A DNA stretch of 64,000 nucleotides from Brevibacterium sp. S111. GTDB lineage: Bacteria; Actinomycetota; Actinomycetes; Actinomycetales; Brevibacteriaceae. This document shows positions 3,274 to 28,396 of the stretch, piece after piece. How positions within the stretch are numbered: the first letter of the stretch is position 1; the number at the start of each line of letters is the position of its first letter. The notes beneath the pieces were generated by a model. That model was given only the letters and a program-made list of their open reading frames with translations. It searched no databases and was not told the origin of the DNA. Position numbers and translations under genes: made by a program. The DNA lies in NCBI RefSeq assembly GCF_004745075.1, contig NZ_RHFH01000004.1:186001-250000 (forward strand), given 5' to 3'.

Positions 3274-6200
3274 GTGTCCGTCAATACTCCGAACCGCACC
3301 GTTGAAGACTTCGGGTCGAACGAGTGGCTGGTCGAGGAATTGTATGAGCAGTACAAGTCAGATAAGAACTCCGTCGACAAGTCCTGGTGGCCGTTCTTCG
3401 ACAAGTACGAGAAGAACAGCGGCGGCGCGAAGCCGGCCGCTGACAAGTCCGCTGCGAAGCAGGAGGCGGAGCCGACTGCGAAGAAGTCGGAGGCGAAGTC
3501 CTCTGCCCCCGCTGCGGCACAGACGACCTCACGTGAGACCTCTCGCGGGGTCTCACCGTCTTCGGCCGAGTCCGAGACGCTGAAGGCCGAGACGAAGTCC
3601 GTGCCCCAGGTCTCGGCCAAAGACACCGAGCCCAAGCCCGCCCCGGAGGAGACGATCACTCCGCTGCGCGGCCCCGCCAAGCTCATCGCCAAGAACATGG
3701 ATGACTCAATCGAGGTGCCCACCGCCACCTCGGTGCGGGCACTGCCTGCCAAGGCGCTCATCGACAACCGCATCGTCATCAACTCACACCTCAAGCGCAC
3801 CCGCGGCGGCAAGGTCTCCTTCACCCACCTGATCGGCTTCGCCGTCATCCGGGCACTGAAGAACTTCCCTTCGCAGAACGTCTCCTACGATGTCCGCGAC
3901 GGCAAGCCCGTGATGATCTCGCCGGCCCACATCAACTTCGGGCTGGCCATCGACGTGCCGAAGAAGGACGGCTCGCGCACCCTGCTGGTGCCGAACGTCA
4001 AGAAGGCCGAGACCTTGACCTTCCGCCAGTTCGTCGATGCCTATGACGGCCTCGTCGACAAGGCTCGCAAGGGCAAGCTGACCGCCGACGACTTCGCCGG
4101 CACCACTGTGTCCCTGACCAACCCCGGCGGCATCGGCACCGTCCACTCAGTGCCGCGTCTGACCAAGGGCCAGGGCTGCATCATCGGCGTCGGAGCACTC
4201 GACTACCCGGCCGAGTTCCAGGGCGCGAGCCAGCAGACCATCAACTCCCTGGCCGTGTCCAAGGTGCTGACCCTGACCTCGACCTATGACCATCGCGTCA
4301 TCCAGGGCGCCGGTTCCGGTGAGTTCCTCAAACTCGTGCACAGCTACCTGCTGGGTGAGGACGGATTCTACGATGACGTCTTCGAGTCCCTGCGCCTGCC
4401 GTATGAGCCTGTGCGCTGGGTCCCCGACGTCTCGGCCGAAGACCAGGACGACGTCAACAAGACCGCGCGTGTCATCGAGCTCATCGATGCCTATCGCACC
4501 CGCGGTCATCTCATGGCCAACATCGATCCGCTGGTCTACCGTCAGCGTTCGCACCCGGACCTCGACATCAACCAGCACGGTCTGACCCTGTGGGACCTCG
4601 AACGCGAGTTCCCCACCGGCGGCTTCGGCGCCAAACCGATGATGCCCTTCCGCAGCATCCTCGGACTGCTGCGCGAAAGCTACTGCCGGACCATCGGCTT
4701 CGAGTACATGCACATCGCCGACCCGGTCCAGCGCCGCTGGTTCCAGTCGAAGATCGAGATTCCGCATCAGGAGCTGACCCGGTCGGAACAGGGCCACATC
4801 CTCGGTCGTCTCAACGCTGCAGAGGCATTCGAGACCTTCCTGCAGACGAAGTACATCGGACAGAAGCGGTTCAGCCTCGAAGGCGGAGAGTCCGCGATCG
4901 TCCTGCTCGACGAGATCCTCAACCAGTCCGCTGACACCGGGCTCGACGAGGTCGCGATCGGAATGGCCCACCGCGGACGCCTCAACGTGCTCACGAACAT
5001 CGCCGGGAAGAGCTACGCGCAGGTCTTCCAGGAGTTCGACGGCACCATGTCCCCCGACAGCGTGCAGGGATCCGGTGACGTCAAGTACCACCTCGGCACG
5101 CAGGGTTCCTTCACCTCGCCGTCGGGCAACACCACCGGCGTCTACGTCGCGGCCAACCCCAGCCACCTCGAGACCGTCGACCCGGTCCTCGAAGGCATCG
5201 TCCGCGCCAAGCAGGACCTCATCGACCAGGGTGAGGCCGGCTTCTCCGTGCTGCCGGTTCTCGTCCACGGAGATGCCGCCTTCGCCGGTCAGGGCGTGGT
5301 CACCGAGACGCTCAACCTCTCGGAGCTGCGCGGCTATCGCACCGGCGGAACCGTTCACGTCATCATCAACAACCAGGTCGGGTTCACCACTCCCCCCGCC
5401 TCGGCGCGATCATCCTTCTACTGCACGGACGTGGCCAAGTCGATCAACGCCCCGATCTTCCACGTCAACGGAGATGACCCCGAGGCGGTCGTTCGGGCCG
5501 CACGACTGGCCTTCGAATACCGGCAGGAATTCAATCGGGACGTCGTCATCGACCTCGTGTGCTACCGCCGCCGCGGTCACAACGAGGGCGACGACCCGTC
5601 GATGACTCAGCCGCTGATGTACTCGCTCATCGAGAAGAAGGGTTCGGTGCGCAAGCTCTACACCGAGTCGCTCGTGGGCAGGAAGTGCATCACCGACGAA
5701 GAAGCCGCCGAGGCGCTCAAGGACTACCAGTCGAAGCTGGAATCGGCATTCGCCGAGACCAAGGAGGCCGAGACCGGTCCCTACGAGGGCGAAGCGTTCA
5801 ACGCTCCCTACGAGCCCAGCGACATCGAGACCTTCAACGATGCCGAGACGGCGATCAGCTCCGAGATGCTCCAACGCATCGGTGAGGCCTTCGCCGAAGT
5901 GCCCGAGGGCTTCACGGTGCACAAGAAGCTGCGGGCGCTGCTCGAGAAGCGCAAGGAGATGTCGCTGACCGGTGGCATCGACTGGGGCTTCGCCGAACTC
6001 ATCGCCTTCGGTTCGCTGCTCATGGACGGCGTGCCCGTGCGTCTGGCCGGCCAGGATTCGCGCCGCGGAACCTTCGTCCAGCGCCACTCAGTGCTCATCG
6101 ACGCCGTCAACGGCAACGAGTGGACTCCGCTGCAGAACCTCACCGAGGATCAGGCCCGCTTCTGGGTCTACGATTCCCTGCTCAGTGAGTACGCGGCTGT

Positions 6201-22322: not shown

Positions 22323-23795
22323 ATGACCGATGACAACAACAATGAGCAGAATCCGTTCGAGCAGATCTTTGGGATGCTCTTCGGCGCCAATGGCCCCGGT
22401 TCCGGTGAGGGCGAGGACAAAAACGAGTCCGGCATGCCGCAGGGTTTTCAGATCGATCCATCGATGATGGCGACGATCATGAACCAGATGCAGGGGCTGT
22501 TCGGGCAGGGCGCCGATCCGCAGGCTCAGGCTGTGTCGATCGCGCAGAAGGCCGTGCCGACCCCTGACCCCGCAGTCACCGATGAAGCCGAACGTGCGAC
22601 GACCGATGCTTTCCGTCTGGCGGAGCTGTGGCTCGCCGAAGCGACGGAATTCTCCGTGGCCAATCGCTCTGCGCGTCCGCTGCGCCGCACCGACTGGGTG
22701 AAGGAGACGATGCCCGGGTGGCAGAAGTTCGTTCTGCCCATCAAGGAGAACATGTCGACGGCGCTGACCGAGACGCTCGAGTCACAGGTGCCGGCGGAGA
22801 TGAAGGGCATCCTCGCGGGAGCATCGTCGATGTTCGGATCAATGAGCGATTCGATGTTCGCCATGCAGATCGGCCAGGCCGTGGGCGCGCTGTCGGAAAG
22901 CGTCCTCACCGGCACCGAGGTCGGACTTCCCCTGCTCCCCCACGACTCTGCCGTCCTGGTGGAGACGAATGTGGAGTCCTTCGCCGCCGATATCGATATC
23001 GACGCCTCCGAGGTCCGGATCTACCTTGCCGCTCAGGAGCTCGCCCATCTCGCACTGTTCGAACGTGCACCGTGGCTGAGCGCCCAGGTCGAGACCGCTC
23101 TGACCCGCTATGCCCAGGGGCTCAAGGTCGACACCTCGCAGATCGAGGACATGGCGTCGAATATCGATCCGTCGAACATCTCCGACCTCAGCGACAACAT
23201 CCGTCAAGGCCTGTTCAACCCCCCGACGACGGACGACCAGAAGCAGGCTCTGACATCCCTGGAGAACCTTCTCGCCGTCATCGCAGGCTGGGCCGACGTC
23301 GTCGTCTACGAGGCATGCAAACATCTGCCCGGTCGCGACCAGGTTCGTGAAGCGCTGCGCCGTCGCCGAGCGACTGCTGGACCGGCCGAGAAGACCTTCT
23401 CCACGCTGGTCGGCCTGCAGCTCAACCCGCGCCGCCTGCGCGATGCCGCTGCACTGTTCGCTTACCTCGAGACGCAGGGCGGGGCCGAAGCCAGGGACCA
23501 GGTGTTCTCTCACCCAGACCTGCTGCCGACGACTCAGGACCTCGATGACCCACTCGGATATTCGGAGCGCCGTCAGGCCGAATGGACCAACGAATCGAGC
23601 ATCGACGAGGCCCTCAGCCGCATCCTCGCTGAAGGACTCGACGGCGCCGGCGGCACCGGAGACGAAACTCCTCAGGCTTCGGACTCCGACGCAGACTCCT
23701 CCGCCGACGCCTCGACGGACTCGGACTCGGACTCGGACTCGGACTCGGACTCGGACTCGGACGAGGATGACACGGACGCGAGTGACGATCGCTGA
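22323..23795 (+). CDS. Zinc-dependent metalloprotease-like protein (DUF2342 family)
   Basis: A 490-aa protein of the actinobacterial DUF2342/zincin-like family (Rv3195 type). The core has a putative metal motif QELAHLALFERAPWL in the middle; the extended helical flanks (FQIDPSMMATIMNQMQ, SSMFGSMSDSMFAMQIGQAV) are typical. The C-terminus ends in an acidic low-complexity tail containing a Ser-Asp repeat encoded by a tandem hexanucleotide. I start at the ATG reading MTDDNNNEQN. The motif lacks a clean HExxH, so protease activity is not proven. It is followed with no gap by a Nudix gene and divergent from the Lon-like gene. Confidence 0.85.
   Translation: MTDDNNNEQNPFEQIFGMLFGANGPGSGEGEDKNESGMPQGFQIDPSMMATIMNQMQGLFGQGADPQAQAVSIAQKAVPTPDPAVTDEAERATTDAFRLAELWLAEATEFSVANRSARPLRRTDWVKETMPGWQKFVLPIKENMSTALTETLESQVPAEMKGILAGASSMFGSMSDSMFAMQIGQAVGALSESVLTGTEVGLPLLPHDSAVLVETNVESFAADIDIDASEVRIYLAAQELAHLALFERAPWLSAQVETALTRYAQGLKVDTSQIEDMASNIDPSNISDLSDNIRQGLFNPPTTDDQKQALTSLENLLAVIAGWADVVVYEACKHLPGRDQVREALRRRRATAGPAEKTFSTLVGLQLNPRRLRDAAALFAYLETQGGAEARDQVFSHPDLLPTTQDLDDPLGYSERRQAEWTNESSIDEALSRILAEGLDGAGGTGDETPQASDSDADSSADASTDSDSDSDSDSDSDSDEDDTDASDDR
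23718..23762 (+). repeat. Tandem hexanucleotide repeat (GACTCG) inside the metalloprotease gene
   Basis: About 7.5 perfect copies of GACTCG encode an (Asp-Ser) run near the protein's C-terminus. Copy-number change would stay in frame and alter only tail length. Confidence 0.95.
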
Positions 23796-24347
23796 ATGAT
23801 CGAGCTCGAAACGGCCCGTCGGGAGATCGACCTGGCCCCTGCCGGACCGTTCCTCGAGGACTTCGTCGAACTCTTCGGCCTGCAGGGAGCGGATTCTCTG
23901 CGACGTGACGGCGGAGCTCACCACGTCACCGCGAGCTGTCTGGTCGTCGACCCCGATACGGAGTCGGTCCTGCTCAATCACCATCGCAAAGCCGGACTGT
24001 GGGGGCAGTTCGGCGGTCATCTCGAACCCGAGGACCTCTCTCTGCATGCTGCCGCCCGCAGAGAGGCCGAGGAGGAGAGCGGCATGCAGCTCCTCCACGT
24101 CTCCCCCGCCCCCGTCGACCTGCACGTGCATGACCTGTCATCGTCGTTCGGCAGCTGCACGCGGCACTTCGACGTCGTGTTCGCGGCCTACGCCTCGGTG
24201 ACGGAATCGCCGAGCGTATCCGCGGAATCACTCGACGTGGCGTGGTTTTCGATGCGAGATCTGCCCGCAGCGCTCATGCCGGACCTGCCGGCACGCCTGC
24301 CGGGGCTCTACGCTGCAGCTCTCCGCTCGTCCGATGCTCATCGCTGA
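23796..24347 (+). CDS. Nudix hydrolase
   Basis: A 183-aa protein with a complete Nudix box (GGHLEPEDLSLHAAAR then REAEEESG) at about residues 69-92. It starts immediately after the metalloprotease stop (TGA ATG) and is surely co-transcribed. The domain hydrolyses a nucleoside diphosphate linked to another group; the N-terminal extension and the sequence HHRKAGLWGQFGGHLE resemble uncharacterised actinobacterial members. Substrate unknown. Confidence 0.9.
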   Translation: MIELETARREIDLAPAGPFLEDFVELFGLQGADSLRRDGGAHHVTASCLVVDPDTESVLLNHHRKAGLWGQFGGHLEPEDLSLHAAARREAEEESGMQLLHVSPAPVDLHVHDLSSSFGSCTRHFDVVFAAYASVTESPSVSAESLDVAWFSMRDLPAALMPDLPARLPGLYAAALRSSDAHR

Positions 24348-24392
24348 CGGGCTCCGGGCTCTCAACACCCGCAACCGACGCCCTCCGGTCAG

Positions 24393-24944
24393 TCAGCTCC
24401 CCCGGCCGAACCGCTCACCATCACTGAAGCCTTCGAGGTAGAGCTTCGCATCCGCCTGCCTGGGGTGCCGGTTCGCCAAGGCGTGGAATTCCTTCGAATG
24501 CGGGCCGATCTGCAGATGAACGAGTTCATGGACGACCACTGTCTCAAGCACCCACCGGGGGACGGCCTGAAGCCGGTGGGAGATGCGGATGTCGCCCGTC
24601 GAGGTCGTCGTCGACGCCCACCTGCTGAGGTTCTGGTTCGTCACCCACCTGATCGAGGCAGGGCACAGCCGCCCAGCGAAATAGCGGCGGCTCATCTCCT
24701 CGGCCAGTTCGACGAGATCGGCGGCGGAGGAATGATCGCGGGCGGAGAGACGATTGAACAGATCTGTCAGCGACCTGATGTTGTGCTCGACGCTGTAACG
24801 CACAGGTGTGCGCAGGACATAGGTCTCAATCTCCTTCGACACGGCCACGGTCTTCTTCCGCCTGGCCGATCGGCGCACTTCGATCTCACCGCGGGCGATC
24901 GCTCGCAGCACTTCCTCTTCGGTCCACCGCTGTCCTCTGGTCAC
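24393..24944 (-). CDS. YgjP-like (DUF45/M48-type) zinc metallopeptidase domain protein
   Basis: A 183-aa protein with the zinc motif VVVHELVHLQIGPHSKEFHA (HExxH plus a downstream His), the signature of the WLM/YgjP/SprT-like group. The N-terminus (EVRRSARRKKTVAVSKE) is basic, as in other YgjP-like proteins. No signal peptide or membrane segment, so cytosolic. Convergent with the Nudix gene. Substrate unknown; some YgjP-like proteins have been described as acting on nucleotides. Confidence 0.85.
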   Translation of the reverse strand: MTRGQRWTEEEVLRAIARGEIEVRRSARRKKTVAVSKEIETYVLRTPVRYSVEHNIRSLTDLFNRLSARDHSSAADLVELAEEMSRRYFAGRLCPASIRWVTNQNLSRWASTTTSTGDIRISHRLQAVPRWVLETVVVHELVHLQIGPHSKEFHALANRHPRQADAKLYLEGFSDGERFGRGS

Positions 24945-25477
24945 TGCACCATCATAGGAAACGGCACTGACATCGCCGGGAGATCTCCATCACCGCTCCC
25001 CAACTTGTGAGTTTCCTGAGTATCACGGTTCTTTCGTCCTCGATCCGGTCGTCCACAGCCGCCTCGGCGATCGGAAACCGCCTCGAAGTGGTGTTGGCAC
25101 CGACTGATGGATGGCTTATCAACAGATTCGACCGCGTACGAGCCGCCTTCCCTCCACAGCCCTACCAGCGATTCCCACAGCTTATCCACAGGCTGTTGAC
25201 GTGTCTGTGCATGACGGTGCATTGACGCGGCGGCGAATGCGGAATAAGTTCTATGCTTGACCCCGGAAAACCCGGAGATACGTGCGGAAGGGGAAGCCGC
25301 ACGAGTCTTCGCGAGCGCCTGGGGCATGATGCGGTTGAGGGCAAGCCCGAACATGTCTTCCGGCTTGTCCTCAACCGTTTCCCACAGGGTTATCCACAGT
25401 TCGCTGCGGCCCATGGCTATTCGCCCTCCGGTTCACTACCGTGGAAGTCTCAGAGCTGCCGAGGCGAAGGTGCCGAG
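24945..25477. other. Non-coding region with several DnaA-box-like 9-mers
   Basis: About 530 bp without a credible gene, between the YgjP-like and TOMM-like genes. It contains two perfect TTATCCACA (25182-25190, 25390-25398) and one TTATCAACA (25116-25124), all on the plus strand, plus a weaker TCGTCCACA (25049-25057). These match the bacterial DnaA box. No dnaA, dnaN or gyr gene is nearby, so this is not oriC by context. The long minus-strand frame here has no recognisable protein and is not called. Confidence 0.65.
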
Positions 25478-26380
25478 ATGTTCAGGATCTTTCCCAGTGT
25501 TCCCATCACATGGCGTTCGTCGTCGTGCGTCCAGTTCGGTGCCGATGATCCTGTGCTCATCGACGGGCTGCTTCCGGCCGATGTCAGTCTCATCGAGGAT
25601 CTGCGGCTGGGCATCGGCTCTTCCCAGTTCTATGCGCGCGCTCAGGAGCTCGGGGCAGATCTCAGTCGGGCCAGCTCCCTCATCACGCTGCTCGGCGAGG
25701 CCGGCGTGCTGGTTCCTGAAGGTCCGGACTCGGGAGCCGTTCGGAAAGGCTCGCCCGTCTTCGCCGCCGCACGTTCCTTCGGTCTGGCTCCCGACCGAGT
25801 CTCACAGATCCTCGGTGCTCGTCCCGTGCTGGTCACCGGTCCGCTGCGGGCGCAGGCAGAAGGGCAGCTCGCTGCACTCGGCTTTGCGATCTCCTCAGCC
25901 CGTCGCATTGACGAGCTGAACCTGATGAGCGCTCCCATCGTCGTTGCGAGTTCCCATCTGGTTCCGGACCTGCATGCGGCCATATGGCTGAACGACCGTG
26001 AGATCGACCATTGCCAGGTGGTGCTCGGTGAACATGCCGTGGAGATCACAGGGCTCATCCGTCCCGGGCGGACTCCGTGCACGATGTGTCAGTGCCTGCA
26101 TCGCAAGGACAGCGATTCCGGATGGCTCGAGCAGTATCCTCGCCTGCGGGCCCTTGCCGATCGCGAGACTCTGTGCGATCCCGCCGCGCGCATCCTCGGC
26201 TCGGCACATGTCGCTCAGCTGCTCCGGCAGGCTCTCCTGCGTCCCGAACTCGCTCTCGTCGCCCGGAGCATCTCGCTCGAGTCAGGAGGTGTGGACGACC
26301 ACGGGCCGACCTTCCACGAGCGATGTCGATGTCGGGCGCCCGTGCCCGATTTCGGTTCACTCGGAGAGCAGGCTCAATAG
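25478..26380 (+). CDS. Orphan TOMM-cyclodehydratase-like/ThiF-like protein
   Basis: A 300-aa protein that resembles the actinobacterial group annotated as bacteriocin-biosynthesis cyclodehydratase or TOMM-precursor-binding. The N-terminal half looks like a winged-helix leader-binding region (DGLLPADVSLIEDL, ASSLITLLGEAGVLVPE). The C-terminal half is ThiF/E1-like but lacks a clear ATP-binding loop, and carries four cysteines (PGRTPCTMCQCLHRKD and HERCRCR) that could hold zinc. No YcaO, precursor peptide or oxidase gene is adjacent, so it is not part of a visible RiPP cluster. GAAGG precedes the ATG. Its 3' end overlaps that of uvrD2 by 24 bp. Function unknown. Confidence 0.65.
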   Translation: MFRIFPSVPITWRSSSCVQFGADDPVLIDGLLPADVSLIEDLRLGIGSSQFYARAQELGADLSRASSLITLLGEAGVLVPEGPDSGAVRKGSPVFAAARSFGLAPDRVSQILGARPVLVTGPLRAQAEGQLAALGFAISSARRIDELNLMSAPIVVASSHLVPDLHAAIWLNDREIDHCQVVLGEHAVEITGLIRPGRTPCTMCQCLHRKDSDSGWLEQYPRLRALADRETLCDPAARILGSAHVAQLLRQALLRPELALVARSISLESGGVDDHGPTFHERCRCRAPVPDFGSLGEQAQ

Positions 26381-28396
26381 ACTCTTTCCGTACAGCTCGA
26401 GCTTCGTCGCCCCGACCCCGGGCACGCGTGCAAGCTCCTCGAAATCACGTGGACGGACCTCGGCGATGACGGACAGGGACGTGTCGGTGAGCACCAGGTA
26501 GGGCGGAAGCCCCTGTTCCATACCTACTCGAACCCTCCAACGCCGAAGTCGGTCGAGGAGATCGAAGTCGATGTCTGCGGGGCATTCGGAGCAGCGCCCC
26601 ACAGCCCTGTCGACTTGCGAGACCAACGCTCGTCCGCATCCGCGACAGCGGTTGAGGCTCGCCGTATTCGCAGGCTTTCGCCCTCCGCCCCTCGCGTGGC
26701 CGACCTGTCCGAGTTCCGAGAGGAACCGGGAAGCCTTGCGTGGTTTCTGCTTCGACTCGAAGCGGGCCAGCGACCAGCTCATCGCCAGCTCCTTGCCGGC
26801 ACGGGTCAGCGCAACGTAGAACAGGCGCCGTTCTTCGGCAATCGCGCGGGGCGTCTGCGCATAGCTGATCGGCAGGAGTCCTTCGCTCAGGCCCACAAGA
26901 TGGACGCTGTCCCATTCCAGACCTTTGGCAGCGTGGAACGACGCCAAGGTGACACCTTCGATGTCGGGAGCGAACTGGTGTTCGGCCCGGTCGGCCAGAT
27001 CATCGAGGAAGGCTCCCATCGGCACAGGCAGTTCCTGACCCGTTTGATGCTCCTCGGCGAGGTCCACGAGCGCTTTGAGCGATTCCCACCGCTGCCGGCT
27101 TGCTCCGGGACCGGGCGGTTCGCGTGTGAAGCCGAGAGACCCGAGCACCTCCATCACGGCATCGGGCAGCCGCTGCCCGCTCGAGGTCGCACGCGCAGCC
27201 TTGAGCATGAGGACCGCTTCCTTGACCTCCTTGCGTGCGAAGAAGCGTTCACCCCCACGCAGCACATAAGGGATCCCCGCAGCGGCCAGTGCCTGCTCAT
27301 AGGCGGGACTCTGCCCGTTCGTGCGGAAGAGCACCGCAATGTTGCGGGGACGACGCCCCGCCCGGATCTCAGCCGAGATCGCTTGGACGACACCGTTCGC
27401 CTCTGCTTCGTCGCTCGGGTATTCGGCCATGCTCGGGGGCTTGCCTTCGGCATTGTCGGTACGCAGGGTCAAGGCGGTCTTTGCCGTGTACCGGAGCAGA
27501 TTGTTCGCTGTGGTCACGATCGACTGCGAAGACCTGTAGTTGCGCACCAGCCGGACCGTTCTGGCTTCGGGCATCGCAGTGCCCAGAGAACCGAGCAGAC
27601 TCGCGTCGGCTCCGGCGAAGGAGTAGATGGTCTGTGCGGGGTCGCCGACGACGCAGAGATTGTCGCGTGGGCCCAGCCACCGAGAGAGCACATCGAACTG
27701 CAGCGGAGAGACGTCCTGGAACTCGTCGACGACGAAGTGTCGGTACTGTTCGCGGATCTCTGCAGCGATGGCCGGGTATTCGGCGAGGACGCCCGAGAGC
27801 ACGAGCAGCACATCGTCGAAGTCGAGCAGGCGCCCGCGTGTCTTCGCCTCCCCATAGGCTTCGAAGATGCGGACCATGTCATCGACACCCAACTGTCCGG
27901 GCAGATCACGCGCCGCCGCCTTCGTCGCATAGTCGTCGACGCCGAGCAGCGAGGCAGCGGCGAATTCGATCTCCGAGGCGACGTCTCGGGTCAGCTCCCG
28001 GCTGGTCTCCAGACCGAGACTCTGCATGACCGATCCGATGATTCCGGCCTTGTTCTCGATGATGCGGGGAAAATCGCCTTCGGCGAATCGGTCCCAGAAG
28101 AAGCGCAGCTGGCGCAGAGCCGCCGAGTGGAAGGTCCGAGCCTGCACGGCGGGCACGCCGAGGCCCCGCAGCCGCGACCGCATCTCACCGGCCGCCTTTG
28201 CAGTGAATGTCAGGGCCAGAACATGGTTGGGAGGAAACACTTCGGTGGCGATTCCATAGGCGATGCGGTGTGTCATGGCGCGTGTCTTGCCGGTGCCGGC
28301 TCCGGCGAGGACGATCACCGGGGAGTCGAAGTGAGTCGCGACTTCGCGCTGCTCCTCGTCCAGGGCCTCCAGCAGGGCCGTGGCCGAAGCGTTCAC
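26357..28396 (-). CDS. uvrD2: ATP-dependent DNA helicase UvrD2
   Basis: A 679-aa superfamily 1A helicase. Motif I is AGAGTGKTR (residues 31-39), motif II DEFQDVSPLQFD (near 224), motif III PAQTIYSFAGA and motif VI VALTRAGKEL. A CxxC...CxxC zinc segment (RCRGCGRALVSQVD, RCSECPAD; near 580-605) links to a C-terminal HRDC domain (FEELARVPGVGATKLELYGK). This domain order is the mycobacterial UvrD2 type, a 3'-5' DNA translocase in genome maintenance. I start at the GTG overlapping the nudC stop (GTGA); the open frame extends about 110 codons further but only as a nudC shadow. Confidence 0.92.
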   Translation of the reverse strand: MNASATALLEALDEEQREVATHFDSPVIVLAGAGTGKTRAMTHRIAYGIATEVFPPNHVLALTFTAKAAGEMRSRLRGLGVPAVQARTFHSAALRQLRFFWDRFAEGDFPRIIENKAGIIGSVMQSLGLETSRELTRDVASEIEFAAASLLGVDDYATKAAARDLPGQLGVDDMVRIFEAYGEAKTRGRLLDFDDVLLVLSGVLAEYPAIAAEIREQYRHFVVDEFQDVSPLQFDVLSRWLGPRDNLCVVGDPAQTIYSFAGADASLLGSLGTAMPEARTVRLVRNYRSSQSIVTTANNLLRYTAKTALTLRTDNAEGKPPSMAEYPSDEAEANGVVQAISAEIRAGRRPRNIAVLFRTNGQSPAYEQALAAAGIPYVLRGGERFFARKEVKEAVLMLKAARATSSGQRLPDAVMEVLGSLGFTREPPGPGASRQRWESLKALVDLAEEHQTGQELPVPMGAFLDDLADRAEHQFAPDIEGVTLASFHAAKGLEWDSVHLVGLSEGLLPISYAQTPRAIAEERRLFYVALTRAGKELAMSWSLARFESKQKPRKASRFLSELGQVGHARGGGRKPANTASLNRCRGCGRALVSQVDRAVGRCSECPADIDFDLLDRLRRWRVRVGMEQGLPPYLVLTDTSLSVIAEVRPRDFEELARVPGVGATKLELYGKSLLSLLSE

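Follow-up and report, generated by a model that had tools for sequence, protein, structure and literature searches.

What does a cluster of DnaA-type boxes do when it lies in GC-rich DNA with no replication gene beside it? The question is raised by a 64,000-nt stretch of the Brevibacterium sp. S111 genome (contig NZ_RHFH01000004.1, positions 186,001 to 250,000; the whole stretch is hereafter the window), in which a first-pass annotation had marked several such boxes in a 530-bp gap said to hold no gene. Three roles had been offered for them: titration of DnaA in the manner of datA, accessory initiation or regulation, and control of the adjacent genes.

A rare cluster of DnaA-type boxes far from dnaA

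As reported, the window holds two perfect copies of TTATCCACA, both on the plus strand (25182-25190 and 25390-25398), and no others; over 100 shuffles the mean expectation was 0.04 copies per window and no shuffle had two. Also present are TTATCAACA at 25116 and, by sequence reading, the distal DnaA-type box TCGTCCACA (25049..25057, plus strand). The list of boxes was correct as far as it went but incomplete, as it lacked CCCTCCACA on the plus strand (25150..25158; 69 bp upstream of the -35 element described below, counted to its TCC). The two perfect boxes, listed as single sites, each turned out to have a partner just before it on the same strand, with which it forms a double box: upstream, ATTCCCACA at 25171 and TTATCCACA at 25182 are separated by a gap of 2 bp (25171..25190, plus strand), and downstream, TTTCCCACA at 25378 and TTATCCACA at 25390 by a gap of 3 bp (25378..25398, plus strand).

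Such density is not a general property of the genome to which the window belongs (G000; 4.04 Mb in 70 contigs). It has 12 copies of TTATCCACA and 63 of TTNTCCACA, and neighbouring TTNTCCACA pairs within 250 bp were found only four times in the whole genome, against 0.24 expected: one pair is the locus studied here, two lie beside dnaA (C27:256.8-258.9 kb, with the dnaA domain at C27:257604) and one lies 83 kb from dnaA. At that same distance from dnaA we noted a second tight box cluster (C27:173.60-173.75 kb; L307, minus strand at about 2750-2860), composed of TTGTCCACA, CTATCCACA, TTATCCACA and one inverted box, beside a gene that by eye presumably resembles crgA. The earlier remark that the locus lacks a dnaA/dnaN context was borne out: dnaA sits on another contig in G000, and in six members of the genus whose genome is a single contig, 36-43% of the chromosome separates it from the locus.

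A conserved structured RNA lies between the box groups

The gap is not devoid of genes, as had been thought: a conserved RNA gene with its own promoter sits between the two groups of boxes. When the gap was compared with 59 genomes, 29 matched (the window's own genome counted, all of the same genus), and conservation was deepest in the part between the box groups. The structured core of the RNA, as delimited by covariance models R1-R3 (25261..25324, plus strand), comprises a stem P1, an internal loop and a stem P2 capped by a AAGGGGAAG loop, and its consensus runs in the order P1, GGAUAAC, P2 with a GC-AAGGGGAAG-GC loop, GNGCG and P1'. In the folds predicted for the 28 distinct sequences, the P2 hairpin was seen by eye every time.

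Covariance searches extended the distribution of this RNA well beyond the genus. Model R1, built from 15 genus sequences, matched 25 of 297 genomes in a scan of the order, 24 of them from the same genus and one from another family. Model R2, built from 24 sequences (a candidate at L035:496-547, E 0.0024, was left out as a chance match), found the RNA in 91 of 394 genomes and 40 of 137 genera of the class, with one match per genome. A scan of the phylum with R3 returned two of 296 genomes, one being the window's own, and of 38 genomes chosen by hand, known carriers among them, 14 matched at E 0.05. Scans of more than 40 genomes used stricter filters after a loose first look, so sensitivity differs between scans and the lack of a match, as seen in many families of the class, is weak evidence of absence. 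The RNA is present in 35 of 36 same-genus relatives; the match was absent in G014, of the same genus and in 90 contigs. An exact-pattern scan of named genomes gave at least 120 stretches, and among the matches listed 77 of 80 bear actinobacterial names, with Candidatus Planktophila lacus MMS-21-148 and actinobacterium IMCC26103 among the carriers. When R3 was run on 53 loci (52 exact-pattern stretches plus the viral-contig locus L223), 49 matched; L115 and L181, two of the three loci with non-actinobacterial names, gave no R3 match.

The fold is upheld by compensatory changes of the kind expected of a structured RNA gene. In an alignment of 68 matches (63 distinct), which was fitted to the tested structure itself, 97.2% of the cells at paired positions are paired, and double-sided changes occur at 18 of 20 pairs, in 267 cells compared to 68 after shuffling. 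The covariation score is 0.597, versus 0.210 in the shuffled alignment and at most 0.122 when the structure is slid along it. Since G-U cells (128) far exceed A-C cells (8), the plus strand is the sense strand of the RNA. Outside the genus P1 is extended outward, with a median of 7 pairs, and in family f44, which we take to be acI, P1 was seen by eye to close the whole RNA, with U-runs after it.

Several other readings of the same DNA were considered and set aside. No known Rfam family reached its gathering score when the region 23700-26600 of the window and 16 other loci were searched with the 4227 models of Rfam 15: the best overlapping hit in the window was mir-335 (21.5 bits against a gathering score of 64), and the sub-threshold hits otherwise included CRISPR-DR8 in the window and gabT, ncS01, toga_FSE and others elsewhere. 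Coding readings fared no better, as the minus-strand open reading frame 24941-25414 has no Pfam match, and the plus-strand frame listed from 25253 starts within the RNA, with gaps between RNA and ATG 25478 that vary widely in length among relatives. The start of the downstream gene is likely this ATG at 25478, not the 25253 of the listed frame. A mobile origin was likewise dismissed: the stretch 25130-25410 was unmatched in plasmids or phages, and L223, the sole exact-pattern hit in viral contigs, is not among the R3 matches. The RNA appears to represent an undescribed family, strongly conserved in many actinobacteria, with a predicted length of about 80-130 nt. Such a family could have been missed, the scans being negative in some of the families with the largest sampled genomes (f37 and f22), which we presume may include well-studied model genera.

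The RNA gene has its own promoter and a probable 3' end

Just upstream of the core lies a sigma-70-type promoter, TTGACG-N17-TAAGTT (25222..25250, plus strand), that is conserved across genera. TTGA is found at this place in 39 of 41 genera, being missing in two f38 genera, and TANNNT follows it at 17-18 bp in 37 of 41 (best of spacers 16-19). On the other side, the core is followed by a long hairpin formed by an inverted repeat (25332..25377, plus strand), which is probably the 3' end or terminator of the RNA in this genus. It was seen by eye in the predicted fold of all 24 genus loci examined, and its sequence is wholly different between subgroups. Judged from the sequence, the gene would therefore be bounded by its own promoter at one end and by either the closing P1 or the hairpin at the other.

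Conservation of the boxes within the genus, a point on which the first-pass annotation had made its proposal depend, was confirmed. Among 23 same-genus loci (the window's included) TTNTCCACA occurs upstream of the RNA in 19, downstream in 22 and on both sides in 18. The double box immediately 3' of the hairpin is particular to this genus, such boxes being nearly absent downstream in others: over 33 genera, one of which is the window's own, TCC[AC]CA was counted twice on the plus strand and four times on the minus strand in the 200 bp that follow the RNA. The individual upstream sites are kept to different degrees. TTATCAACA precedes the RNA in just 3 of 24 genus loci, that of the window being counted. 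In 20 of the 24 some form of NNNTCCACA stands 178-234 bp ahead of the core (the copy at 25049 lies at 212 bp), and a box at 67-69 bp from TTGA, counted by hand, is present in 19 of 23.

The upstream boxes form a one-strand array in phase with the promoter

We then analyzed the 200 bp upstream of the RNA in one locus per genus, taken from 33 genera of 21 families, with f44 set apart; these loci were returned by the scans or fetched, and are not a random sample. TCC[AC]CA was found 132 times on the RNA strand and 3 times on the other strand, compared to 10.8 occurrences expected from dinucleotide shuffles (maximum 19). At least three upstream boxes are present in 29 of the 33 genera, versus a mean of 0.1 and a maximum of 2 in the shuffles. 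In G000 the GC content of these 200 bp is 0.57.

The distances from box to -35 are not spread evenly. They cluster at 13-14, 23-26, 34-37, 46-47, 68-69, 78-80, 91-92 and 102-104 bp, and for the 31 genera with TTGA and distances of 9-110 bp they follow a period of 11.15 bp (R 0.845, n=120, null maximum 0.28). From one box to the next the distance is 11 or 12 bp in 43 of 99 cases, and in 91 of 99 it is 11-12, 21-23, 32-34 or 43-46 bp; the promoter itself is free of RNA-strand boxes in the 78 loci examined. Spacing and phase are compatible with DnaA oligomers, and the sequence pattern is that of one-turn stacking in phase with the promoter. By contrast, in f44 (8 genera, one locus each) RNA and promoter are kept with only 5 stray boxes, and hence the RNA does not depend on control by DnaA in every lineage.

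The boxes resemble those at the origins of the same genomes

The annotation of the sites as DnaA boxes finds support in the sequences (substitutions in relatives, gaps of the double boxes, stacking and the variants at oriC), and DnaA is accordingly the probable, though predicted, ligand. In the densest 600 bp near dnaA, by which the oriC clusters were chosen, box variants are similar to those of the array in the same genomes, namely TTATCCACA and TTTTCCACA in this genus and TNGTCCCCA with others in GC-rich families. Unlike those upstream of the RNA, the boxes of the oriC clusters lie on both strands, and at the third box base A is as frequent as G near dnaA, whereas G predominates (63%) before the RNA. 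The proportions of boxes with C at position 7 near dnaA and before the RNA are correlated (rho 0.60, p 0.006, n=19 genomes); this raw correlation is confounded by GC content, which may explain part of it. G339 is an exception: none of its boxes at oriC has such a C, against 3 of 5 ahead of the RNA. Outside the genus many boxes are degenerate, with C at position 7 in 27% and the first two bases free.

Two published observations bear on the ligand. According to the available text of PMC11317965, DnaA of Escherichia coli prefers double boxes with gaps of 2-3 bp, and the gaps at our locus (2 and 3 bp) are these preferred ones; TTGTCCACA is listed as the high-affinity box of Streptomyces coelicolor and Mycobacterium tuberculosis in the available part of PMC4285127. 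In five genomes (G335, G696, G028, G355 and G002) the DnaA domain (PF00308) is partially matched not just by dnaA but also by additional proteins of about 240-460 aa.

Neighbouring genes and syntenic regions lacking the RNA

The gap is bordered on one side by a YgjP-like metallopeptidase gene, our synteny anchor (24393..24944, minus strand; PF01863, E 5.7e-13), and on the other by a gene (25478..26380, plus strand) that is homologous to proteins with a ThiF match. The latter, presumably Rv3196-like, has no Pfam or NCBIfam match of its own, and outside the genus its homology to the ThiF-matching proteins is weak. YgjP-like homologues adjoin the RNA in other families too: in blastp comparisons with the window's proteins a divergent YgjP-like gene was its neighbour in 14 of 34 loci and Zincin_2 homologues were found in 8, both being lower bounds because calling flanks by the longest open reading frame is crude in GC-rich DNA. 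These recurrent neighbours speak for vertical inheritance. The Zincin_2 protein of the window ends in a long Ser-Asp repeat (SDSDSDSDSD; about 23700-23795).

Downstream, the next gene differs between lineages. A same-strand ThiF-like homologue follows in the window's genus and, further away, in L079, L098 and L076, and in six loci (L077, L081, L088, L094 from f44, L164 and L136) the next gene is a convergent Zincin_2, an arrangement that favours a free-standing RNA and disfavours a riboswitch.

We also examined 20 syntenic windows from 16 families, mostly chosen because the genome scans had given no RNA hit. R3 found no match at E < 0.01 in them or in G074, except in G372 (f38; a weak match, E 0.0008). 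Among the 20 windows that gave no hit (19 of these and G074), 13 have at most one box per any 160 bp of a strand; two boxes within 160 bp occur in G043, G044, G053 and G039, and three in G406, G049 and G048. The triplets of G406 (L290, about 5585-5680) and G049 (L294, about 1800-1840) each lie on one strand, beside a gene that by eye is DUF5679-like, and possibly mark a divergent RNA or a relic.

A model of DnaA-controlled transcription and its alternatives

Taken together, fold, conservation, promoter, box array, phase and synteny lead us to consider it likely that the locus is a structured small RNA gene under the control of DnaA, which would stack on the phased same-strand array and probably activate transcription. 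DnaA, probably as DnaA-ATP, would line up on the array with one molecule on each turn of the helix until it reaches the -35 element, where it could recruit or stabilise RNA polymerase. Boxes that point one way, are phased to the -35 and spare the promoter form an activator geometry; repression of the RNA gene by DnaA is possible. RNA output may then track the level or nucleotide state of DnaA, and hence the replication cycle. In this genus the double box behind the terminal hairpin might in addition help to end the transcript by making DnaA a roadblock, a role in promoting termination that is described for DnaA in the available text of PMC11317965.

The RNA is predicted to work in trans through its apical loop (AAGGGGAAG) and its internal loop (GGAUAAC / GNGCG). 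With its conserved, purine-rich loop the RNA might bind a protein or a target rich in C and U; in a quick look at 16 genomes, sites antisense to the loop had no consistent place around dnaA. More tentatively, and as an idea we would not yet favour, the RNA might be the dedicated output of DnaA, a small RNA that signals competence for initiation and in turn influences replication, division or growth. Of the three roles first offered, regulation fits best, with the RNA gene as its object and not primarily the flanking protein genes, because the phase of the boxes is locked to the -35 of the RNA.

Titration comes next to mind, in the form of a chromosomal DnaA reservoir or nucleotide-exchange site, similar to datA or DARS, whose boxes would set the free level or ATP state of DnaA with the RNA gene as a passenger or transcriptional helper. 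A box cluster that lies far from oriC and is kept over the genus agrees with this, as do the boxes on both sides of the RNA in this genus and the three syntenic windows that hold three boxes with no RNA hit. Yet phasing with a promoter is not predicted for a datA-like reservoir, the boxes of the array keep step with the -35 of the RNA and lie almost all on one strand (132 versus 3), and 13 of the 20 syntenic windows lacking the RNA have no more than one box per any 160 bp; the part of the titration proposal that places a DnaA-box cluster away from oriC stands, and titration as its purpose becomes less likely, to the point that we regard it as improbable. We would put slightly below it the reading in which another transcription factor with a TCCACAG-like site occupies the boxes and DnaA is uninvolved. 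The many degenerate boxes outside the genus leave room for such a factor, DnaA binding being deduced from sequence; against it speak the similar variants near dnaA of the same genomes, the 2-3 bp gaps that match those of DnaA in the available text of PMC11317965, and TTGTCCACA itself, the high-affinity box of S. coelicolor and M. tuberculosis as listed in the available part of PMC4285127.

If the RNA instead acted in cis, as a riboswitch or attenuator in the leader of the gene after it, with the hairpin as its terminator, the ThiF-like homologue about 100 nt after the hairpin on the same strand in this genus would be its natural target, and the more distant same-strand homologues in L079, L098 and L076 could be read likewise. 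A riboswitch would be expected at a fixed place upstream of one class of same-strand genes, and such a place was found to be kept within the genus only; the convergent Zincin_2 genes in six loci, the variation of the next downstream gene between lineages, and the f44 RNA that P1 closes entirely before the U-runs (by eye) make a leader unlikely. Least probable by far is an accessory replication origin. The cluster does contain oriC-like variants, but no replication gene adjoins it, neither dnaA nor dnaN, the dnaA region has box clusters of its own elsewhere (36-43% of the chromosome away in the six genomes), and a promoter and an RNA are present instead, so that the proposed extra origin receives no support.

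Relation to known systems

Control of replication initiation is less understood in actinobacteria than in E. coli, and the genes whose transcription DnaA is known to regulate encode proteins. An RNA gene that is conserved and preceded by a phased DnaA array would give a direct readout of the DnaA state in actinobacteria, and the locus would offer a ready reporter, a testable activation geometry and an RNA family awaiting its target. The array before the RNA suggests that the replication switch also controls an RNA, and a group of DnaA boxes away from oriC does not have to serve titration.

Like our locus, E. coli nrdAB, Caulobacter gcrA, ftsZ and mipZ and Bacillus subtilis sda have DnaA-type boxes at or upstream of the promoter; those are protein genes, whereas here a structured RNA is preceded by a long array, on its own strand and in phase with the -35. 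A review of transcription by DnaA (PMC8203912) nowhere uses the terms "small RNA", "sRNA" or "noncoding RNA" in its text. The gaps of 2-3 bp are shared with the double boxes of E. coli as presented in the available text of PMC11317965, from which the present type differs in having arrays, typically of 3-6 boxes over about 100 bp, in many families.

As here, datA, DARS1 and DARS2 are non-coding DnaA-box clusters away from oriC. datA is defined by an IHF site and the hydrolysis of DnaA-ATP, and DARS by a box core in defined mixed orientation and the release of ADP; the boxes here lie nearly all on one strand (132 to 3). We know of no RNA gene phased to the boxes of datA, DARS1 or DARS2.

EcpR1, CcnA and the B. 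subtilis dnaA antisense RNA are, as we propose for this RNA, tied to the control of replication or the cell cycle. They belong to different phyla; as far as the available accounts show, they act on dnaA or on cell-cycle regulators, and control by a DnaA array was not seen there. Among titles and the openings of abstracts, with subscription papers thinly covered, we found no account of this RNA and no DnaA-controlled small RNA in actinobacteria. Similar to our RNA, the Actino-pnp, msiK, mraW and ykkC-III motifs are actinobacterial RNAs from comparative genomics (available text of PMC2864571); those with Rfam numbers would have appeared in our Rfam scans, and, in contrast to the actinobacterial RNAs of Rfam, this one stays below the gathering score of every Rfam 15 model. 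In our judgement the locus represents a new RNA family and an equally new type of DnaA-box promoter, inside the known field of DnaA-regulated transcription.
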